Source: a virus
Length of the DNA stretch: 32,884 bases
IMG/VR virus record: IMGVR_UViG_3300035670_000831
Location: 1 to 32,884 of that record
Strand: one strand, 5' to 3'
The notes under the pieces are model-generated. The model searched no databases, had not been told where the DNA came from, and worked only from the letters and a program-made list of their open reading frames with translations. Position 1 is the first letter of the stretch, and each line of letters starts with the position of its first letter. Of this stretch, positions 4,556 to 22,649 are shown piece by piece. The translations under genes and the position numbers were made by a program.

Positions 4556-7176
4556 TGAGTACCAAACTAGAAGATGAGCAGGGGTATCGAGTCTTTGGCT
4601 TAGAAATACAAGGCCTAATGACTCGGTTTTATATGGGATATAATCCATTTCCCACTTCATCGCTTTATGATCTTCAATATACCGATCTAGACTGCATCCA
4701 GTCAATTTCACCATATCAAGCCAGTATAGAGCCATCTGGAGGAGTGGCAACATATCAGCCAATTTCAATATCTTTGGCTATGGATAGAATGAGAGGATCA
4801 AGCGTTGATCCACATGTGATTTTTAGCCGTCTATCAAGATCAAGCTCCATTTGGAATGGTCAGCTTGTCGCCAATGTTTTGCGATCAGATGATACTCCCG
4901 ATCTGGTGGTTGATAGTGATCCATCGATTTGGTACCCACATCTTTTGCATATAGGATCAGAAAGTTTTTATTGCACTGGTCAATCAGAAGATGCTGGCAT
5001 CTATACAATCACGACAACGCACCGGATGGGATTTAGGCAACAACATCAAATCTATCTCGGGGGCACTGATACGCCAATTGTATCAAGCGAGCTAGTATCT
5101 TGGAGAGGCAGGCAGGCCAAAGTTTACGCTTGTGCAGTCGATCAGAACGGCCAAACTTGGGATAATCAAATTATTTTTCAGGGTATTATTGAAAGCTCCC
5201 CAACAATAGAAGGCCTAAACTCAATCACTATTTCAATTCTTCCTATCATCTCCATGCTAGACAATAAGGTCTCATCTGGCACTCAGAAAACTAAATTGGC
5301 TTATGGGATGCACTATTATGGAGATATAAGAAATCAGATCAACAATTTGATTTATCGCTATCCCAACGCGTCTGCTTATGGATATAATCCGATTGATCTA
5401 GGATCAGGCCTAAAGACTCATGATGAAACAATTGATTTGATAAATACCTACGGCAATTCAATTGCAGAAAAGTTTTCAATCATCAAGAGAAGCGGCCGAT
5501 ATATGCTCAGACTGGCAGAAGATGCAACGAATGCAAATCTTGTGTTTTCTGATAATGCTGATCTCTTAATTCAAGCTAGCAATGAAACTTATGCATTTGA
5601 TGTGCCATTGCCTTTCATTGCAGAAGATCCACAAGCTCAATCGTTTGGCATCAGCTTTTTAGGCTCACTTGCACCAATTCGAGAGAAGGTAGACGATAAG
5701 ACTTATCAAGCGGATTTAGGCTTGAAATTTACTGTCACCGAATTCCCTTATGGAATAGGCCAGCCTGCATTTTATGATATTAAGGGATTTGCTTTAGGCT
5801 GGAGAGATAGAGATGAATATCATATCTTAATACAAGACTCTCTAGGTCTACCAACTGAAGCAGATGGCAATCAGTACGCTATTCAGATCAAGATCGGCGA
5901 TCAAGTCATGAATGCACTGGCCACTCATGAACAAGATTTAGGCAATGCATTCTTAGTTTATCTAGATAGAAATGCGGATGAAAATAGAAGACTTCCACCA
6001 TTCGGAGATTTTCTAGGAGAAGCGTCACCAGTTGAGATTTCTAAAGGCATGATCATCACCAGAAGACCAGCCGGCGAAGTCATTTTACAACTGCTTGAAA
6101 GTGGTGGAGGTGGTGCAATCAATGGAAGTTATGACCTACAATTGACGGGATGCAATTTGAATTCAAGCATGATTGATGAGGAGTCATTTTTAAGCTTGAA
6201 TAGCGCATCAGGCATCACTGATTGGATGTTTTCTTTGCCAGCTGATGAGCTCACTTTGAGAGAGATACTTGATCCTATGCTCAAGACGGCTGGCGCTTGT
6301 ATCGTGATGAATAGGGATAGCTATAATCCTAAAATCTCTTTGATGCTGCTAGGACATGAGGCAGATGAAGATCAATTGTCTTTGTCAGATGATCACTTCT
6401 TAGTAAATAAGCCTCCATACTGGTCAAACTTTGAAGATATCGTCACTCAATTCAAATTCAATTATGACATGCATCAAGAAAATCCAACCTCAAGAATTGT
6501 CAACAATTATGACGCGATCAACCGGCTAGCAGGTGAGACCAAATCAATGGAATTGAATTTATATGGCATCACTAGCGACATTCTAGGGGGTACAAATGCA
6601 AGTGACTTTCTAGAGAATTTTCTTCCAACTTATGCAAGACTCTTCAGGCTATATGGTCAAGCCGTCAGAATGTGGCATCTATCCATCGGCACTGGCAAGG
6701 CGTTGACTTTAGATGTTGGTGGATATCTAAGAATAACAAGCCGATTTTTAAAGGGATATTCAGACGCTTATGGAGTGGCAAATAAAGTGGCTATGATACA
6801 AGAAATCAGTATTGACCTTATGGGGGAAGGTGCAGATTTAAAGCTTGTACACTTGGGGGATTCATCGCCATCTTGGAATGCGTCTGCTAAAGTGAAAACA
6901 ATCATCAATTCAACCACTTTAGAGATTGAGACTGCATTTTATTCAGATGCTGATATAAATTATTTTCAAGTTGGGGATGTGATAAGCTATAGCATGTCAG
7001 GATCTGATGACACGATATCGACAAAAACAATAAGCGCAATCAGTGGCAATCAGATCACTTTTACATCAAATCATGGCGCTAGTGTTGGCGGTGTCATCCA
7101 GCCTGCAACCTTTTCCAGTGCACCGGCTCATCACACAAAAAGAGCTTATATAGATAGGAGTTTCATCTATGAGTGA
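4555..7176 (+). CDS. Large tail hub / baseplate protein
   Basis: At 873 residues this is the largest tail-tip protein, placed where siphophages encode the central hub that caps the tail and carries the fibres. The N-terminal ~250 residues are beta-rich and reminiscent of phage hub domains, with repeated strand patterns such as ITISILPIISMLD near residue 222. The C-terminal ~90 residues have the pattern of a small beta-barrel (VGDVISYSMSG near residue 810, then ISGNQITFTSNHG). No lysozyme or peptidase motif is seen. Coupled by TAATG to the gene before and by an 8-nt overlap to the small gene after. Assignment rests on size, order and general character. Confidence 0.65.
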   Translation: MSTKLEDEQGYRVFGLEIQGLMTRFYMGYNPFPTSSLYDLQYTDLDCIQSISPYQASIEPSGGVATYQPISISLAMDRMRGSSVDPHVIFSRLSRSSSIWNGQLVANVLRSDDTPDLVVDSDPSIWYPHLLHIGSESFYCTGQSEDAGIYTITTTHRMGFRQQHQIYLGGTDTPIVSSELVSWRGRQAKVYACAVDQNGQTWDNQIIFQGIIESSPTIEGLNSITISILPIISMLDNKVSSGTQKTKLAYGMHYYGDIRNQINNLIYRYPNASAYGYNPIDLGSGLKTHDETIDLINTYGNSIAEKFSIIKRSGRYMLRLAEDATNANLVFSDNADLLIQASNETYAFDVPLPFIAEDPQAQSFGISFLGSLAPIREKVDDKTYQADLGLKFTVTEFPYGIGQPAFYDIKGFALGWRDRDEYHILIQDSLGLPTEADGNQYAIQIKIGDQVMNALATHEQDLGNAFLVYLDRNADENRRLPPFGDFLGEASPVEISKGMIITRRPAGEVILQLLESGGGGAINGSYDLQLTGCNLNSSMIDEESFLSLNSASGITDWMFSLPADELTLREILDPMLKTAGACIVMNRDSYNPKISLMLLGHEADEDQLSLSDDHFLVNKPPYWSNFEDIVTQFKFNYDMHQENPTSRIVNNYDAINRLAGETKSMELNLYGITSDILGGTNASDFLENFLPTYARLFRLYGQAVRMWHLSIGTGKALTLDVGGYLRITSRFLKGYSDAYGVANKVAMIQEISIDLMGEGADLKLVHLGDSSPSWNASAKVKTIINSTTLEIETAFYSDADINYFQVGDVISYSMSGSDDTISTKTISAISGNQITFTSNHGASVGGVIQPATFSSAPAHHTKRAYIDRSFIYE

Positions 7177-7709: not shown

Positions 7710-10160
7710 ATGGCAATTATTATTAAGCCTCCAGTAAGTGGCGGCGGTGGCGGTGCAGTTGATTCAGTGAATGGAGAGACTGGCGTTGTTGTTTTAACTA
7801 CTGACAATATCGATGCTGGCGTAAATGCAGATCGTCAATATTTCACTGCTGCACTGCAAACCGATCTAGATGCTAAAGCTGATCAAACTGCTTTAGATGC
7901 AGTACAAGACAAGACTCTTTATTCTAATTCTTATTATGTAAATGATGGAGTCAACGATATTCAAGCGATCTTAGACGATATTGCCGGATCAACTGGAGTA
8001 AGTGCAATTTATGTATCTGCTGGATCTTATGGCGGCTCAACGGTCACAATCTCAGATCATGCAAATGTCAACATTTTAGCGCCAGAGTCTCCAACCGGCG
8101 TGCATGGTTGCGAGTTGCTATCTCGAGGCTTAACCATATCAGGTGCAAGTACAACAAGAATTAAGATTGAAAATCTCAACATTGAGGGAGCTTTCTTGAT
8201 CAATGGCACTCAAGGCCGGCACTATTTCAAAAATGTTATCTTTGATAGTACCGTTACGATCAACAATTCAACGGCCAATTTTGTCACTTTTGAACAATGC
8301 TCATTTGCTGGTGGCATCTCTATTGCATCCAATGTGACGGCGACAATTTATTTTGATAGATGTGCTTTAGGAAATCAATTTATCACCTCATCAAGATCTG
8401 GCGCCGGATCACCATTGTTGACAATCTTGACTGAATGCAGCGGGGTAAATGCACTGCAAACTAATCTGGCAAGTAACGTTGCTTTGGTTGGTCGCACCGG
8501 CTTTAATAGTGGTGCAGTTGTGCAGTATCAAAATTCTGATAACTATGTTTATGATCTCAATAATGGTCTTTCTACTTCTTTCAGTGGATCATATAGCGAG
8601 CTCAGAAACAAGCCAACTATTCCAACTTCAAGCGATGATTTGACCGAAGGATCAAGCAATTTATATTATACCAATACGAGATTTGATAATAGGCTTGGCA
8701 CAAAAACAACCGATAATTTAACTGAAGGCTCAACTAACATCTATTTCACCACTGCACGAGCTAAAACGGCGGCGGTTGTCAATAGCATGGCAGACAATCA
8801 AACTGATCAAGCTCCATCAGTTTCATCGGTTAAATCGTATTATACCGCTGGCACTGGCATCTCTCTCTCTAGTGGTCAAATTTCATCAACAATCACTCAA
8901 TACACTGATGCGGATGCAGATGCAAGGATCACACTTCAAAAAGGTGCAAACAACGGGATTTGCGAGCTTGATGCAAATGGTCTTGTGCCTACAAATCATC
9001 TTCCACCTTTGGCAATAACGGATGTGCATGTTGTGGCTGATGAAGCTGCTAGACTTGCGTTGATCGCTCAAGAGGGGGATGTTGCTATTCAAACTGATAA
9101 CTCGTCATCTTGGATTTATGACGGTAGTGCGTGGGTAGCCTTTGGCGTAAGTGGCGCAGTCTTGTCAGTTAATAGTCAAACCGGTACAGTTTCACTTGAT
9201 ACTGATGATATTTCAGAGGGATCAACAAACAGATATTTTAGCGATACACTGGCAAGAACGGCCTCCGTTGTTGATAGCACATCAGGCACTGAGACAAATC
9301 AAGCTCCATCAGTGGCGGCGATGAAATCTTATGTTTTGGCCAATGCTGGCGCAGTCAATTCGGTCAATTCGGTCTCTCCAGTTTCTGGCAATGTCACATT
9401 GACAACTGACAATTTAACCGAAGGATCAAGCAATTTATATTATACCAATACGAGATTTGATAATAGGCTTGGCACAAAAACAACCGATGATTTAAGTGAA
9501 GGATCAACTAATCTCTATTATACAAGTACAAGAGTTAATAGTGCGTTTGATACAAGACTTGCGACAAAAACAACTGATAATTTAACTGAAGGAACAACCA
9601 ACAAGTATTTTTCAGATACACTTGCAAGAAATGCGTTTAGTGCTGGCACTGGCATCACAATCACAACCGGCCAAATCGCTACAACAATCACACAATACAC
9701 CGACACACTAGCAAAGGCGGCGGCGGTTGTGAATTCAATGGCAGGATCTCAAACTGATCAGTCTCCATCAGTTTCATCGGTTAAATCGTATTATACCGCT
9801 GGCACTGGCATCAGCATCACAAACGGCCAAATCTCTGCCACTGGCGGAGGTGGCGGCGGATCAAGGCCAACATACAGCACTGAGTCATCTTTTCCATTGA
9901 ATTTGGGAGGTGTTGATTATACTGGAGTTATTAAGAGAAGATATTATATCAGTAACGGAGCATCGGCAGTGACAATCAATCTTCCGGCAGTGGCATCAAA
10001 TGACGGCTTAGAATTGACATTTAAATTGCTTGGTACTGGCGCTGCTACAATTGACGCAAACGCAAGTGAAACAATCGACGGCGCTCTAACTCTTGTACTT
10101 TCAGCACAAAATTCAGCAGTTAATTTGATTGCAACAAGTGCAGGATGGAGGATTGAATAA
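7710..10160 (+). CDS. Tail fibre / receptor-binding protein with repeats
   Basis: An 816-residue protein. It opens with a Gly-rich stretch and a VNGETGVVVLTTDNI motif common at the start of phage fibre repeats. Residues ~65-275 look like a right-handed beta-helix (repeated short strands such as IKIENLNIEGAF, VTINNSTANFVTFEQC). Residues ~305-690 hold six imperfect copies of a repeat centred on TEGSSNLYYTNTRFDNRL (variants IYFTTARAKTA, RYFSDTLARTA and others), a known shaft motif of phage fibres. The C-terminal ~100 residues follow a Gly linker and form a small beta-rich tip ending in GWRIE. No endosialidase-type autocleavage motif is evident. It would bind the host surface. DNA repeats inside the gene are listed separately. 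Confidence 0.85.
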   Translation: MAIIIKPPVSGGGGGAVDSVNGETGVVVLTTDNIDAGVNADRQYFTAALQTDLDAKADQTALDAVQDKTLYSNSYYVNDGVNDIQAILDDIAGSTGVSAIYVSAGSYGGSTVTISDHANVNILAPESPTGVHGCELLSRGLTISGASTTRIKIENLNIEGAFLINGTQGRHYFKNVIFDSTVTINNSTANFVTFEQCSFAGGISIASNVTATIYFDRCALGNQFITSSRSGAGSPLLTILTECSGVNALQTNLASNVALVGRTGFNSGAVVQYQNSDNYVYDLNNGLSTSFSGSYSELRNKPTIPTSSDDLTEGSSNLYYTNTRFDNRLGTKTTDNLTEGSTNIYFTTARAKTAAVVNSMADNQTDQAPSVSSVKSYYTAGTGISLSSGQISSTITQYTDADADARITLQKGANNGICELDANGLVPTNHLPPLAITDVHVVADEAARLALIAQEGDVAIQTDNSSSWIYDGSAWVAFGVSGAVLSVNSQTGTVSLDTDDISEGSTNRYFSDTLARTASVVDSTSGTETNQAPSVAAMKSYVLANAGAVNSVNSVSPVSGNVTLTTDNLTEGSSNLYYTNTRFDNRLGTKTTDDLSEGSTNLYYTSTRVNSAFDTRLATKTTDNLTEGTTNKYFSDTLARNAFSAGTGITITTGQIATTITQYTDTLAKAAAVVNSMAGSQTDQSPSVSSVKSYYTAGTGISITNGQISATGGGGGGSRPTYSTESSFPLNLGGVDYTGVIKRRYYISNGASAVTINLPAVASNDGLELTFKLLGTGAATIDANASETIDGALTLVLSAQNSAVNLIATSAGWRIE
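8643..8714 (+). repeat. 72-bp exact direct repeat in fibre gene, copy 1
   Basis: Identical over 72 bases to 9417-9488, 774 bp downstream and in the same reading frame. It encodes one TEGSSNLYYTNTRFDNRL unit. Exact identity at the DNA level implies recent duplication or gene conversion. Confidence 0.9.
8812..8861 (+). repeat. 50-bp exact direct repeat in fibre gene, copy 1
   Basis: Identical to 9763-9812 (951 bp apart, in frame). It encodes PSVSSVKSYYTAGTGI, a second repeated module of the fibre shaft. Confidence 0.9.
9417..9488 (+). repeat. 72-bp exact direct repeat in fibre gene, copy 2
   Basis: Second copy of the repeat at 8643-8714. Recombination between the two would delete 774 bp in frame (258 codons), shortening the fibre. 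Confidence 0.9.
9763..9812 (+). repeat. 50-bp exact direct repeat in fibre gene, copy 2
   Basis: Second copy of the repeat at 8812-8861, near the end of the fibre shaft and just before the Gly linker. Confidence 0.9.
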
Positions 10161-17855: not shown

Positions 17856-19283
17856 TTGAGCAAACTTTTTTCAAAACAGATCACTAGCTGGGGAGTGGCC
17901 TGCAATATCAGCAGATGCAAAACCATGGCAACAATCCCAAATGGTCAAAGAATTGTCATGTTACTTTTAGAGCTTTATGATGTCATGCCTATGTGTAGTC
18001 AGCTGGCAATCACTCAAAGGTATATGGAAATTGCAAACATCTTGGGAATTGCTGAAAGACCGGCAATGAGGGGATTGACTGCACTTTGTGATCATGGCTT
18101 TCTAGTAAAAGAAGCAAACGCACATGAAAAAGAAAAGAAGGCAAATACTTGGTGTTTTACCTCTAAAATGATTGTCAGATACTGGCGATCTTGGGGAGAC
18201 TTTAAAGATATCAATCTCAGTGCATTGCCTCCAGAAGACAAAGATTTAAAGATCAGGCTAGAAGCTCAAGCAATCTTAAATAGCATCCTAAATTCAAATA
18301 ATTTAAGCCTCCCCCCCCTGGTGTCACCAATAGCACCACCTAGTGCCACCAATGGCACTACCCTGGTGTCACCAATAGCACCACCTAGTGCCACCAATGG
18401 CAGAAAACTTGCCACCAGTGGCAGAAATCTTGCCACCAGTGACACCACATTATTAAGAGAGGAAGATACTTCTATTAAGAACAGGATTAAGGAGCATCCA
18501 CCAACCGACAAGCCTTCTTCATCTGGATTTGCTGATTTGGATTTACCTAGATGGAATGACATGAAGCATCTTTTCAAAGAAGAAATGATCAAGGTGGATG
18601 ATATGACTCAAATCAAAATTGTTTCATCTTGGCCAGATCCTCCAGCTGGATATAAAATCAATCAAGAGGCTGGCTATTGCAATCACAATTTCAAGGCCAA
18701 AGATTTTGATAGAGAAGTCTCCAGGCAATGCAAAATCATAAAGGCCTTAAATGGTCAAAAAACTCTCTTGCTTAAAAGACAAATGGACATGACTTTGCAA
18801 AACTTTGGCGGATTGCTCTCAGATGATGAAAAGAACGCCATAGAAACATCAATCACCATCCCAACAGGTCAAAGGCTATTCATCTATGGAGAACGCGCCA
18901 AAGGTGAGCATTTAGCAGCAGGCATTTTTAAGCATGCACTCTTTCAGATGGAGAACGGAAATGATCGCCAATTTGGATGCTCATCCATCTTCTATGGCGG
19001 ATTTGAATTTCTGATTGAAACAAGAAAAAACATGTATGAAAAGTATGGAAGAGAAAATCCTGGTGGCTTTCCAACTGCTCAGCTGTTGACTGACAATGTT
19101 GAATACATGATCATTTACAACCACTCAAATGCAACAAATAAAATGCTGATGCATGTACACAATGACATTGACCAGATCATCCTCAATAGACCAACAATGA
19201 ATTTCATCATCTGCTCAACTTCTCATATCAGCCAGTGCTCTAAGGCAATTCAAGACAACTTCATAAATATTCAAATCAAGTAA
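17856..19283 (+). CDS. Replication initiator: winged-helix domain plus degenerate ATPase domain
   Basis: 475 residues, starting at a TTG that is the only start with a ribosome site (AAGGAG 5 nt upstream). Residues ~28-105 read as a winged helix (ITQRYMEIANILGIAERPAM, then GFLVKE). Residues ~153-200 are a Pro/Ala/Ser/Thr linker encoded by the iteron array. Residues ~335-475 resemble a helicase-loader ATPase (DnaC/IstB type) by outline: LFIYGERAKGEHLAAGIF in the P-loop place (345-352), EYMIIYNHSN in the Walker B place and FIICSTSHI as sensor-like strand. The P-loop lacks GK[ST] and Walker B lacks its acidic pair, so ATP hydrolysis is doubtful. By analogy with lambda O it should bind the iterons and recruit DnaB. 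The ATPase comparison is by eye. Confidence 0.72.
   Translation: MSKLFSKQITSWGVACNISRCKTMATIPNGQRIVMLLLELYDVMPMCSQLAITQRYMEIANILGIAERPAMRGLTALCDHGFLVKEANAHEKEKKANTWCFTSKMIVRYWRSWGDFKDINLSALPPEDKDLKIRLEAQAILNSILNSNNLSLPPLVSPIAPPSATNGTTLVSPIAPPSATNGRKLATSGRNLATSDTTLLREEDTSIKNRIKEHPPTDKPSSSGFADLDLPRWNDMKHLFKEEMIKVDDMTQIKIVSSWPDPPAGYKINQEAGYCNHNFKAKDFDREVSRQCKIIKALNGQKTLLLKRQMDMTLQNFGGLLSDDEKNAIETSITIPTGQRLFIYGERAKGEHLAAGIFKHALFQMENGNDRQFGCSSIFYGGFEFLIETRKNMYEKYGRENPGGFPTAQLLTDNVEYMIIYNHSNATNKMLMHVHNDIDQIILNRPTMNFIICSTSHISQCSKAIQDNFINIQIK
18322..18444. repeat. Replication origin candidate: six iterons inside initiator gene
   Basis: Six copies of TGYCACCARTRRCA, an imperfect palindrome, at 18322-18335, 18344-18357, 18367-18380, 18389-18402, 18410-18423 and 18431-18444. 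Start-to-start spacing is 22, 23, 22, 21 and 21 bp, about two helical turns, so all would face one side of the helix. Copies 1-2 and 3-4 lie in a 42-bp exact direct repeat (18316-18357 and 18361-18402, period 45). AT-rich DNA flanks the array at about 18270-18310 and 18447-18480. This is the arrangement of the lambda origin within gene O. Confidence 0.8.
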
Positions 19284-19707: not shown

Positions 19708-20451
19708 ATGAAAATCAATCCAACCTACTCATCAGGCGATATCAATTTTATCCATGATGAAGCTCAAATCTTTGTTGAAAGCATCATCAACAATCTTGAT
19801 GATAATATCACTCCAGTCTTGGGAGATGATGGCAAATATCATTATGTTTATCTCACTGTCAATAAGGCCAATGGATTTTTCTATATTGGGAAGATAACAG
19901 CCGGCGGAGTCAATCCAAAGACACAGAGAAAAAATAAAGGTCATACAGTTGAGGCACGATTAAATTTTTATTTAAAAACCTATTACGGAAGCGGATTAAA
20001 AATTCAGAAGGCAATTGAATCAGAAGGCAAATCTAATTTCTTAAAATTTGTTATCAAATTCTGTAAATCTTCCGAAGAAGGTTTTGATCTTGAAAATCGT
20101 TTAGCAGATGAAGAAACACTAAAACAATTCTTTCATCTCCAATGTATGTATAATATACGCACTGGAGGAAGAGGCGGAGTTGATATTGAAGAGAAAGAAA
20201 AAAGGGAAAAGCAAACACGACTTAAAAAGAAAGATGAGATAATTTTAGTTAACAATGAAGATGTCTTATCTTTTTTGAAAAATGGATATTTACCAGCCAA
20301 TGCATATATCCATCTTTACAATGAGAACAGCATTTTTAAGGTGTATAGACTTAAATTTTCAGATGGCGATTGGAGACTAAATTGGCTTATCAGCATGTTA
20401 GAAGAGGGATGGCAAATCATAAGCAATCAGAAATATCAGAGTTTGAAATAA
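19708..20451 (+). CDS. GIY-YIG family homing-endonuclease-like protein
   Basis: 247 residues. The N-terminal nuclease domain (residues ~43-155) shows HYVYLTVN (45-52) and FYIGK (58-62) in the GIY and YIG positions, YYGSGLKIQKAIESEGKSNF (92-111), and a likely catalytic Glu at about 129 in DLENRLADEE. The Asn-containing MYNIRTGGRGG closes the domain, as in phage Seg-type endonucleases. The C-terminal ~90 residues are Lys/Glu-rich then aromatic and may bind DNA. Free-standing, not inside an intron that I can see. Such enzymes cut a site in phage relatives lacking them. It sits just before the stem-loop gap. Confidence 0.82.
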   Translation: MKINPTYSSGDINFIHDEAQIFVESIINNLDDNITPVLGDDGKYHYVYLTVNKANGFFYIGKITAGGVNPKTQRKNKGHTVEARLNFYLKTYYGSGLKIQKAIESEGKSNFLKFVIKFCKSSEEGFDLENRLADEETLKQFFHLQCMYNIRTGGRGGVDIEEKEKREKQTRLKKKDEIILVNNEDVLSFLKNGYLPANAYIHLYNENSIFKVYRLKFSDGDWRLNWLISMLEEGWQIISNQKYQSLK

Positions 20452-20478
20452 ATTTTAAATGCAATTTGTTTAATCATC

Positions 20479-20546
20479 GCCAGCTCATCCTAAGCGAACC
20501 TTTTTTAGTGAAAAACCTCTTAGTGCGTAGTACCTTTAGAGCTGGC
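20479..20546. ncRNA. Stem-loop element A (possible structured RNA)
   Basis: GCCAGCTC (20479-20486) pairs perfectly with GAGCTGGC (20539-20546). Inside, CTAAG (20490-20494) pairs with CTTAG (20519-20523), and a TTTTT/AAAAA hairpin lies within. Strand is unknown because the stem is symmetric. Element B repeats the outer stem with a compensating base change. Confidence 0.45.
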
Positions 20547-20557
20547 AACTTTAAATC

Positions 20558-20615
20558 GCCGGCTCATTTGGTTAAATGGAAATCACAAAATACGCTAAAC
20601 TAAAACCGAGCCGGC
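20558..20615. ncRNA. Stem-loop element B (possible structured RNA)
   Basis: GCCGGCTC (20558-20565) pairs perfectly with GAGCCGGC (20608-20615). An inner stem TTTGGTT (20567-20573) pairs with AACTAAA (20598-20604), with one G-U pair if the RNA is read rightward. Compared with element A, the fourth pair is G-C instead of A-T on both sides of the stem, a covariation. Confidence 0.45.
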
Positions 20616-20683
20616 ATCTATCTTAAATGAAAGAAATTATTGCTCTCATGTGTTTTATCGTTACCTCATACAAGGAGATAACG

Positions 20684-21775
20684 ATGAGCGTAGATTTTGA
20701 TTATAAAAAGGCTGCTACTTTTTTTAAAACAGCAGAAAATCAAGGAAGTAAAGAAGCTAGAAATTTTTTTTGCGAAGTATCAAATTTTCTTAAAAATAAT
20801 ATTCCTGAAGATAGATGGCGATCTCATTCATTGCACCAGAAGCAACCAGGCGCAAGAATTAGTATAAATGACTGGCTTGATAACGAATTGGAAGTTTTAT
20901 TCTATAATGAAGCGGAAGAATTGATTGCCAGTTACACAATGCCATCCCCACGCCACTGTAAAATAATGGAAGATGGTAGATCTTTATTTAGGTTTAAATT
21001 CTATGCTAAGAATTGCGATAATCGTTGGCTTTGGGAAGATAGAAGCTATAATAATGCTTTATATATTGATCGCTTGAATTATTATAAGCCTACTGAATGG
21101 GATCGAAACAATAATTATTTCATCTCTTTGAGTAAGGCAAATGAAGATCCCAGTGAAGATAAAGCTCAACCTCGAAGAGAATTCGGAGTAGATATAGAAT
21201 CATATCCAAATAACTTGCCTTATGTTGCAGGTAATTTTTATTTAAACTTTGATGAATTCAAACAGATGGTAAAAGACATTTGTGATGGGATTGTAAAAAG
21301 GCCTTCAAATTTTTTGATTGATATTTGGCCTTCAAGTGTAATTCAAAAACTTGCATCAAAACTTGAAAGCGTTTCTCAATGCCATCTTTTGGATGAACAA
21401 AATTATCATTTGATCGCTAAATATCTATTTTATTCAGCTATTATTCAAAATGAAGGCTATTGTGATGATGTTATAGATAAAATCTGGCCTAGTGAAAAAT
21501 GTTTTGACTCTCTTTTTAAAACAAATTTCAAAGATCCATTTCCCAATCTTTATAAAGAAGAAGGATATGAAGTCTCTCGGTTTTGGAGTTTGCAAACTTT
21601 GATCATGAGAAAAGATGCGTTAAAAAAGATCATATTCAAAGACATGAAAGAATATCTTAAATTTAAATCTGATCTTTATACACAAGATGAAAATGAGCTC
21701 AGAATGCTTTTTAATAAGCAGTTTTTAGGTAGCTTTATTGATTTAAATTTTAAAGGTATCAATACCATTGGCTGA
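20684..21775 (+). CDS. Unrecognised 363-aa cytoplasmic protein
   Basis: Start at 20684 because AAGGAG (20672-20677) lies 6 nt upstream; an upstream ATG at 20627 has no ribosome site. The sequence is charged and aromatic-rich with no membrane segment, signal peptide or nucleotide-binding motif. Features include DYKKAATFFKTAEN at the N-terminus, a Trp-rich central part (NRWLWEDRSYNNALYIDRL), EFGVDIESYPNNLPYVAG, and a helical C-terminal half with many Lys/Asp/Phe. It stands alone with its own leader next to the stem-loop region. Its stop lies 33 nt inside the end of the convergent dCMP deaminase gene. It could be a moron or host-interaction gene; I do not know its function. Confidence 0.7.
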   Translation: MSVDFDYKKAATFFKTAENQGSKEARNFFCEVSNFLKNNIPEDRWRSHSLHQKQPGARISINDWLDNELEVLFYNEAEELIASYTMPSPRHCKIMEDGRSLFRFKFYAKNCDNRWLWEDRSYNNALYIDRLNYYKPTEWDRNNNYFISLSKANEDPSEDKAQPRREFGVDIESYPNNLPYVAGNFYLNFDEFKQMVKDICDGIVKRPSNFLIDIWPSSVIQKLASKLESVSQCHLLDEQNYHLIAKYLFYSAIIQNEGYCDDVIDKIWPSEKCFDSLFKTNFKDPFPNLYKEEGYEVSRFWSLQTLIMRKDALKKIIFKDMKEYLKFKSDLYTQDENELRMLFNKQFLGSFIDLNFKGINTIG

Positions 21776-22183
21776 TAAATATTCCTCGCCGGTTGAGATC
21801 CATCTATCACTTTTATTTTCATAGACCACTGACTTGATACCAGCATGATGAATAAGTTTTGCACACATCAAACAAGGTGGAGCAGTCACATAAATCGAGC
21901 ATCCCTCAGTAGCGATCCCACATCTGGAAGCGTTGGCAATTGCATTAAATTCAGCATGATGACAACCAATTTGCGTATCTGAGCCACTTGGTATTTTATT
22001 TGCATCTCTAAGGCAACAATCACCGCCACAAAGGCCGGCCTGCTTTCTAGCAATTCCATTGAACGATGACACTACTGGCACATCTCCCCGAACGATAATC
22101 GCACCTACTTTGGCTCTACTACATGGAGAGAGACTAGACATGATCCCCGCCATATCTAAAAATGCTTTATCTTTAGCAGTCAT
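21743..22183 (-). CDS. Deoxycytidylate (dCMP) deaminase
   Basis: 146 residues from the ATG at 22183; an ATG three codons upstream (22192) is too close to AAAGGA and would add three residues. It converts dCMP to dUMP, the substrate for ThyX encoded upstream in the same operon. Catalytic zinc motif: CHHAEFNAI with His76, Ala, Glu78, then APPCLMCAKLI with Cys104 and Cys107. A Cys-rich insert (LCGGDCCLRDAN, about residues 51-62) is typical of T4/ComEB-like dCMP deaminases, where it can hold a second structural zinc. Last gene of its operon; the start overlaps the transglycosylase gene end. Confidence 0.88.
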   Translation of the reverse strand: MTAKDKAFLDMAGIMSSLSPCSRAKVGAIIVRGDVPVVSSFNGIARKQAGLCGGDCCLRDANKIPSGSDTQIGCHHAEFNAIANASRCGIATEGCSIYVTAPPCLMCAKLIHHAGIKSVVYENKSDRWISTGEEYLSANGIDTFKI

Positions 22184-22649
22184 GACAATCATTATCCTTT
22201 GATGCAAGACAAGCCAAATCAGACGCAAGTTTGATAATTGCCTTTGACCTCTTCCCGCACTGGCCTTTATTGCCTACTGTATATCTTCCTAAAGCAAGAC
22301 AAGTATCCCCTTCACTTTTAGCAAGCCAAATCTGATAGGCCTTGATACCATACTCAATTTCACTGCATCCAGCACAATCAACAAACTGACGCTTGACCTG
22401 CATCACACCTTTTGCGCCGGCTGAGGAAGTCAAGCCAGTCTCAAAACGGCTTTCATGATAGGCTAGAGCAATCATCAAATATGGATCAATCTCAAACTTA
22501 TCGGCGGCCTTGGCTACCATTTCACACTGTTTCATCCTAGCGGGGATTGATGCAGATATCATCTTCTCCCATCTGGCGCTCTGAAGAGACTGGCTAGGAT
22601 TAAAGATCAATCCCATGACATGCCAGCAGATTTCAAAATAGCTACTCAT
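22173..22649 (-). CDS. Lytic transglycosylase (SLT/lysozyme-like)
   Basis: 158 residues from the ATG at 22649 (GAGG 6 nt upstream, 8-nt overlap with the zinc-ribbon stop as ATGAGTAG). It cleaves the glycan backbone of peptidoglycan. The SLT signature is LMIALAYHESRFETGLTSSA with catalytic Glu66, followed by AKGVMQVKRQF and a later GRYTVGNKGQCGKRSK. Cys is frequent (pairs near 92/95 and at the C-terminal end). No clear signal peptide; the N-terminus is only mildly hydrophobic. Its place between nucleotide genes, away from the M15 lysin, is odd. It may be virion-associated or a second endolysin. Confidence 0.78.
   Translation of the reverse strand: MSSYFEICWHVMGLIFNPSQSLQSARWEKMISASIPARMKQCEMVAKAADKFEIDPYLMIALAYHESRFETGLTSSAGAKGVMQVKRQFVDCAGCSEIEYGIKAYQIWLAKSEGDTCLALGRYTVGNKGQCGKRSKAIIKLASDLACLASKDNDCHDC

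Follow-up and report, generated by a model that had tools for sequence, protein, structure and literature searches.

Several described systems resemble the locus studied here. The c4 antisense RNA (RF01695) and similar phage sRNAs are short and structured and lie between phage genes in single or few copies. ToxI, the antitoxin RNA of type III toxin-antitoxin systems, is a tandem structured RNA 5' of a protein gene. Integron attC sites also fold, vary in sequence and lie between exchangeable genes; their core boxes are R'' (RYYYAAC) and R' (GTTRRRY). TIGR-Tas systems include phage tandem stem-loops whose arms are variable and always palindromic, each hairpin holding two guides, or spacers, of 8-12 nt between box C (CCA) and box D (UG) (PMC12045711).

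The 32.9-kb stretch of DNA analyzed here, which we call the window, is a virus record with DnaB helicase, RecT, ribonucleotide reductase, ThyX, dCMP deaminase and portal genes. It carries two stem-loops, elements A and B, which we assign to families alpha and beta of a hairpin array found in related phages. Rfam 15 gave no covariance-model match at gathering score in the window, and permissive Rfam scans of the window region and of phage contig L254 returned weak, chance-level matches only. Unlike c4-type RNAs, the array has no covariance match, a stem free in sequence, a conserved loop, and other hairpins in tandem. It is like TIGR-Tas in being a tandem set of phage stem-loops with variable palindromic arms, and a related RNA-guided system with two guides per hairpin would account for such an outline. 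However, array loops are conserved and units few where TIGR-Tas has variable spacers; alpha contains a conserved 12-nt motif, and we could place no consistent CCA and UG boxes with 8-12 nt spacers between them. Neither Nop (PF01798) nor IS110 (PF02371) proteins were found in 12 phage records, with positive controls, in a search that a very divergent Tas could escape. We regard this relationship as extremely improbable; TIGR-Tas arrays are a look-alike in outline only.

The likeness to ToxI is limited in that the array does not repeat a single sequence and the downstream gene changes or is missing. No ToxN-like protein was recognized at the locus. A type III toxin-antitoxin system was rejected since the elements differ in sequence and the 363-aa gene downstream is optional and without a family match. 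In contrast to attC sites, the constant part of the array is the loop and not the ends. No R' and R'' boxes were seen at both ends in register (by inspection only), and no integron integrase was recognized among the genes scanned.

An earlier note had placed two stem-loops in this gap, and both were recovered exactly at its positions, on the + strand. Element A (20479-20546) matches our model R1 with 72.7 bits and pairs GCCAGCTC (20479-20486) with GAGCTGGC (20539-20546) around a 52-nt loop, which includes the conserved alpha motif GCGTAGTACCTT (20525-20536; family form GCGWAGYACCTT). Element B (20558-20615) pairs GCCGGCTC (20558-20565) with GAGCCGGC (20608-20615) around a 42-nt loop with the conserved beta segment TACGCTAAACTAAA at approximately 20590-20604 (TACTAAACTCAAA in other phages). 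5' of A lies TTTGTTTAATCATC (20465-20478, + strand) with a TGTTTAA box, a possible -10-like element that stands immediately 5' of alpha in most of the related loci described below as group 1. 3' of B lies ATCTATCTTAA (20616-20626, + strand); the flank 3' of beta, gamma and delta in relatives is TCTATCTGA, and that 3' of alpha in L246 is CTATCTGA. A scan of the window called no sigma-70 match and no terminator.

Within the window, A and B are the sole perfect 8-bp inverted repeats of their class (at least six G/C, loop of at most 60 nt). The mean number of such repeats in order-1 shuffles was 0.61, and two occurred within 150 nt in 13 of 200 shuffles. Within a single genome the pair is notable, not decisive; the decisive support comes from relatives. 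Both elements had also been credited with inner stems. For B this agrees with the predicted fold, UUUGGUU with AACUAAA (20567-20573 and 20598-20604, + strand), while the inner stem of A is uncertain. Folding differed likewise: B is strongly stable (z = -4.4, none of 200 shuffles equally stable), whereas A shows a slight excess over shuffled sequence (z = -1.2).

Seven relatives of the 363-aa gene were found among viral contigs. One is near-identical and its contig ends inside element B; the other six have three stem-loops in the same gap, with arms TCCGCTC, TCAGCCTC and TCAGCCTC. A search with the dCMP deaminase gave 45 loci, here called group 1. Of these loci, 32 cover the region over more than 600 nt; together with the window they make 33 sequences, and 29 of them have alpha. 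The array is retained at the deaminase junction in nearly all relatives. One to four stem-loops stand beside the deaminase gene in the order alpha, beta, gamma/delta, running in the same direction as neighbouring genes. The carriers are related uncultured phages; a search of cultured phages with the region gave no match. A belongs to alpha by the loop motif GCGWAGYACCTT and B to beta by TAC(GC)TAAACTMAAA; beta was found, among the matches listed, in group 1 only. The two had been taken for copies of one element, which does not hold: they are two families with unrelated loops that coexist with different arms, as in L005 (alpha TCCGCTC, beta TCAGCCTC). Setting the A-T of one stem against the G-C of the other consequently compares two families and is not evidence of covariation.

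Other searches yielded little. A viral-contig scan for GCCGGCTC..GAGCCGGC gave one true relative, L015, recognized by its loop, and its remaining matches were mostly chance. A genome-contig pattern scan gave a single match, which was put down to chance, as it showed no arms that pair. L190, L199 and L239 were rejected as members for weak AT arms apparently within a reading frame, and L030 (R1 match, E 0.0013) was taken as false because the loop motif is missing.

Evidence for structure comes from the stems of the relatives. At least nine unrelated classes of arm sequence, 7-14 bp long, occur in alpha, and the arms are paired almost throughout. The loop is conserved as CCTT...GCGWAGYACCTT, with CCTT near the 5' arm and GCGWAGYACCTT beside the 3' arm. 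Because MAFFT over all 16 alpha elements misplaced the arms, counts were made on inner-anchored arms and on two alignments, A8 and A9. When the arms are anchored at the loop, 98.6% of cells are paired. Shuffling 3' arms among elements lowers this to 55%, and the observed pairing was not reached in any of 100,000 shuffles. The MAFFT alignment A8, not fitted to the structure, has 100% of cells paired and four of eight pairs changed on both sides. A9, in which sequences were aligned to the model and which is hence biased toward the structure, has 97% of cells paired, all eight pairs changed on both sides, and a covariation score of 0.61 against 0.15, with slid controls near zero. In beta, matched deletions in both arms drop one base pair and turn GCCGGCTC into GCCGGTC; the beta of L137 is a half-way state of this deletion. 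Compensatory stem change across relatives, the mark of a structured RNA, is present, and covariation is seen within each family separately. The proposal of selection for structure is strongly supported by these results, since arms change on both sides while pairing is retained.

The inner fold of alpha is inconsistent between members. A coding role for alpha, in which ATGCGTAGCACC would read MRST, was rejected because several members, the window included, have stops in that frame. Two non-Watson-Crick pairs were found, in the alpha of L256 and the gamma of L154. Both are G-U on the + strand and A-C on the - strand, which favours folding of a + strand RNA.

Genes around the array vary. Those coding for a 94-aa protein, a 363- or 403-aa protein, thymidine kinase (by inspection) and others occur optionally after the array or between its members, and in L132, L138, L140, L158 and L162 the array abuts the end of the deaminase gene directly. 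The array is the constant part of the locus and the genes are the variable part. With neighbouring genes turning over around a stable array, we reject a role as the leader of any one gene. In L149, L154, L160 and L164, genes are inserted among the alpha, beta, gamma and delta hairpins in a cassette-like exchange. L160 and L139 hold half elements, just the 3' half of beta or gamma, beside the deaminase gene.

Hairpins that flank each gene of a variable cassette region could be intercistronic mRNA elements that end, process or protect messages. The alternation of elements with optional genes (L149, L154, L160, L164) would suit such a role, as would their position between convergent genes where no gene intervenes, and several loci with the array and then just the end of the convergent gene would allow a function in 3'-end formation or processing. 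Yet loops of mostly 33-60 nt with conserved sequence are not what terminators have, neither alpha nor beta is followed by a U-tract, the terminator scan was empty, and a generic stabilizer would have no need for GCGWAGYACCTT. We consider this explanation unlikely. An intrinsic terminator in particular was rejected for the window, given loops of 52 and 42 nt, no T-run and the empty scan.

Alpha was also detected in a second group of phages (L184, L234, L246 and L253-L257; contigs up to 72 kb), whose portal gene belongs to a different family from that of group 1. Members of group 2 were collected by a loop-motif search, so that motif conservation there is partly a selection of matches, whereas group-1 loci were collected via the deaminase and are free of this bias. 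With model R1, one or two alpha elements were found in all 12 phage records tested. The position of alpha varies among group-2 phages, and the gene 5' of it differs from phage to phage. L184 has two alpha elements with different arms flanking a serine recombinase gene. Best matches between the groups have approximately 60-88% identity for methyltransferases, 50-57% for ThyX and 40-46% for the deaminase, and some contigs of both groups come, by identifier, from the same metagenomes (3300044675, 3300032323). The two groups likely share a host pool. A long hairpin, ATCTTTGTTT...AAACAAAGAT, also occurs in group 2 just 5' of the ribosome site of the portal gene (L254, approximately 5745-5800).

In L253-L257 and L184b, TTGNNN-16/17-TANATT-GCT stands directly 5' of the arm, and alpha begins 3 nt after TANATT. 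A second hairpin with a T-rich tail follows 3' of alpha; its stems (AGCCCGC, AGGCCCGT, AGTATCAAGGCACTTG) differ yet are complementary. These promoter-like and terminator-like calls were made by inspection, and an automatic consensus scan, with limited loop size and 9 of 12 matches demanded, called neither in L254. With such flanks, group-2 alpha looks like a stand-alone small-RNA gene. On this basis we prefer a small phage RNA among the possibilities raised earlier for A and B.

A DNA-level element could also be considered, a folded single strand serving replication, packaging or cassette exchange. GCGNAGC is known as a very stable DNA mini-hairpin sequence and occurs in nearly all alpha elements (GCGTAGT in the window), there are one or two copies per genome, and the site is a hot spot for gene gain and loss. 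On the other hand, alpha always has the orientation of the genes around it, only a + strand RNA fits the two wobble pairs, and group-2 alpha has promoter-like and terminator-like flanks of its own and varies in position. We judge this explanation quite improbable.

We think it somewhat probable that the array is a + strand tandem set of small structured phage RNAs, in which alpha probably acts in trans through its loop; A and B would be members of unnamed structured-RNA families that very likely do a job. Alpha would be transcribed as a discrete + strand RNA of approximately 50-80 nt, closed and protected by a terminal stem of 7-14 bp, with beta, gamma and delta as companion hairpins 3' of it. 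The stem, whose pairing is constant and whose sequence is free, is read most simply as a scaffold and may be nothing more; the loop, constant in sequence, is read most simply as the working surface, here presumably CCTT and GCGWAGYACCTT. During infection this loop could bind a host factor, protein or RNA; that the target belongs to the host is suggested by the retention of the loop in two groups whose hosts are probably shared. The alpha loop pairs no better than shuffled sequence with E. coli 16S, 23S and 5S rRNA, with three tRNAs or with start sites in the window, which would leave protein binding or another RNA target.

A more specific proposal, which is tentative and which we hold to be possible though rather doubtful, is that alpha represents a new class of phage RNAs that use their conserved loop to capture a nuclease or RNA-binding protein of the host. 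Two otherwise different phage groups with a common gene pool would share this class, and two or three more RNA families, likewise unnamed, would accompany it in tandem. To our knowledge, phages have seldom yielded new families of structured RNA that show clean compensatory change. The design is simple, a free stem and a fixed loop. That two phage groups with accessory genes in common both retain this loop points to one host target for the two. If true, the proposal would explain why a gene-exchange hot spot retains its hairpins while genes turn over.

The neighbours named by the earlier note, a GIY-YIG endonuclease and the 363-aa gene, are optional and not part of the element. The SegE-like GIY-YIG gene (19708-20451, + strand) has counterparts 5' of the array in many loci and is absent in L004. 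Its first ~190 nt (19708-19901) have 82% identity to L005 and the remainder has diverged, which suggests domain swapping at the N-terminal region. The 363-aa protein (20684-21775, + strand) has no Pfam, PADLOC or NCBIfam match and no match among cultured phages, nothing further was gained by a distant-relative search with its alignment, and its predicted structure has a mean pLDDT of 50. A hairpin separate from A and B, ATCGTTACCTC/GAGATAACGAT (20657-20685, + strand), conserved in L003-L008, spans the ribosome-binding site of this gene and is likely a translational switch for it. The conserved neighbour is the convergent dCMP deaminase gene (21743-22228, - strand), the bait for collecting loci. 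Elsewhere in the window, an exact 42-nt tandem repeat with 45-nt spacing (18316-18402) lies within a 475-aa gene, and diverged repeats of 90-154 nt (8629-9835) lie within the gene for an 816-aa tail or structural protein.
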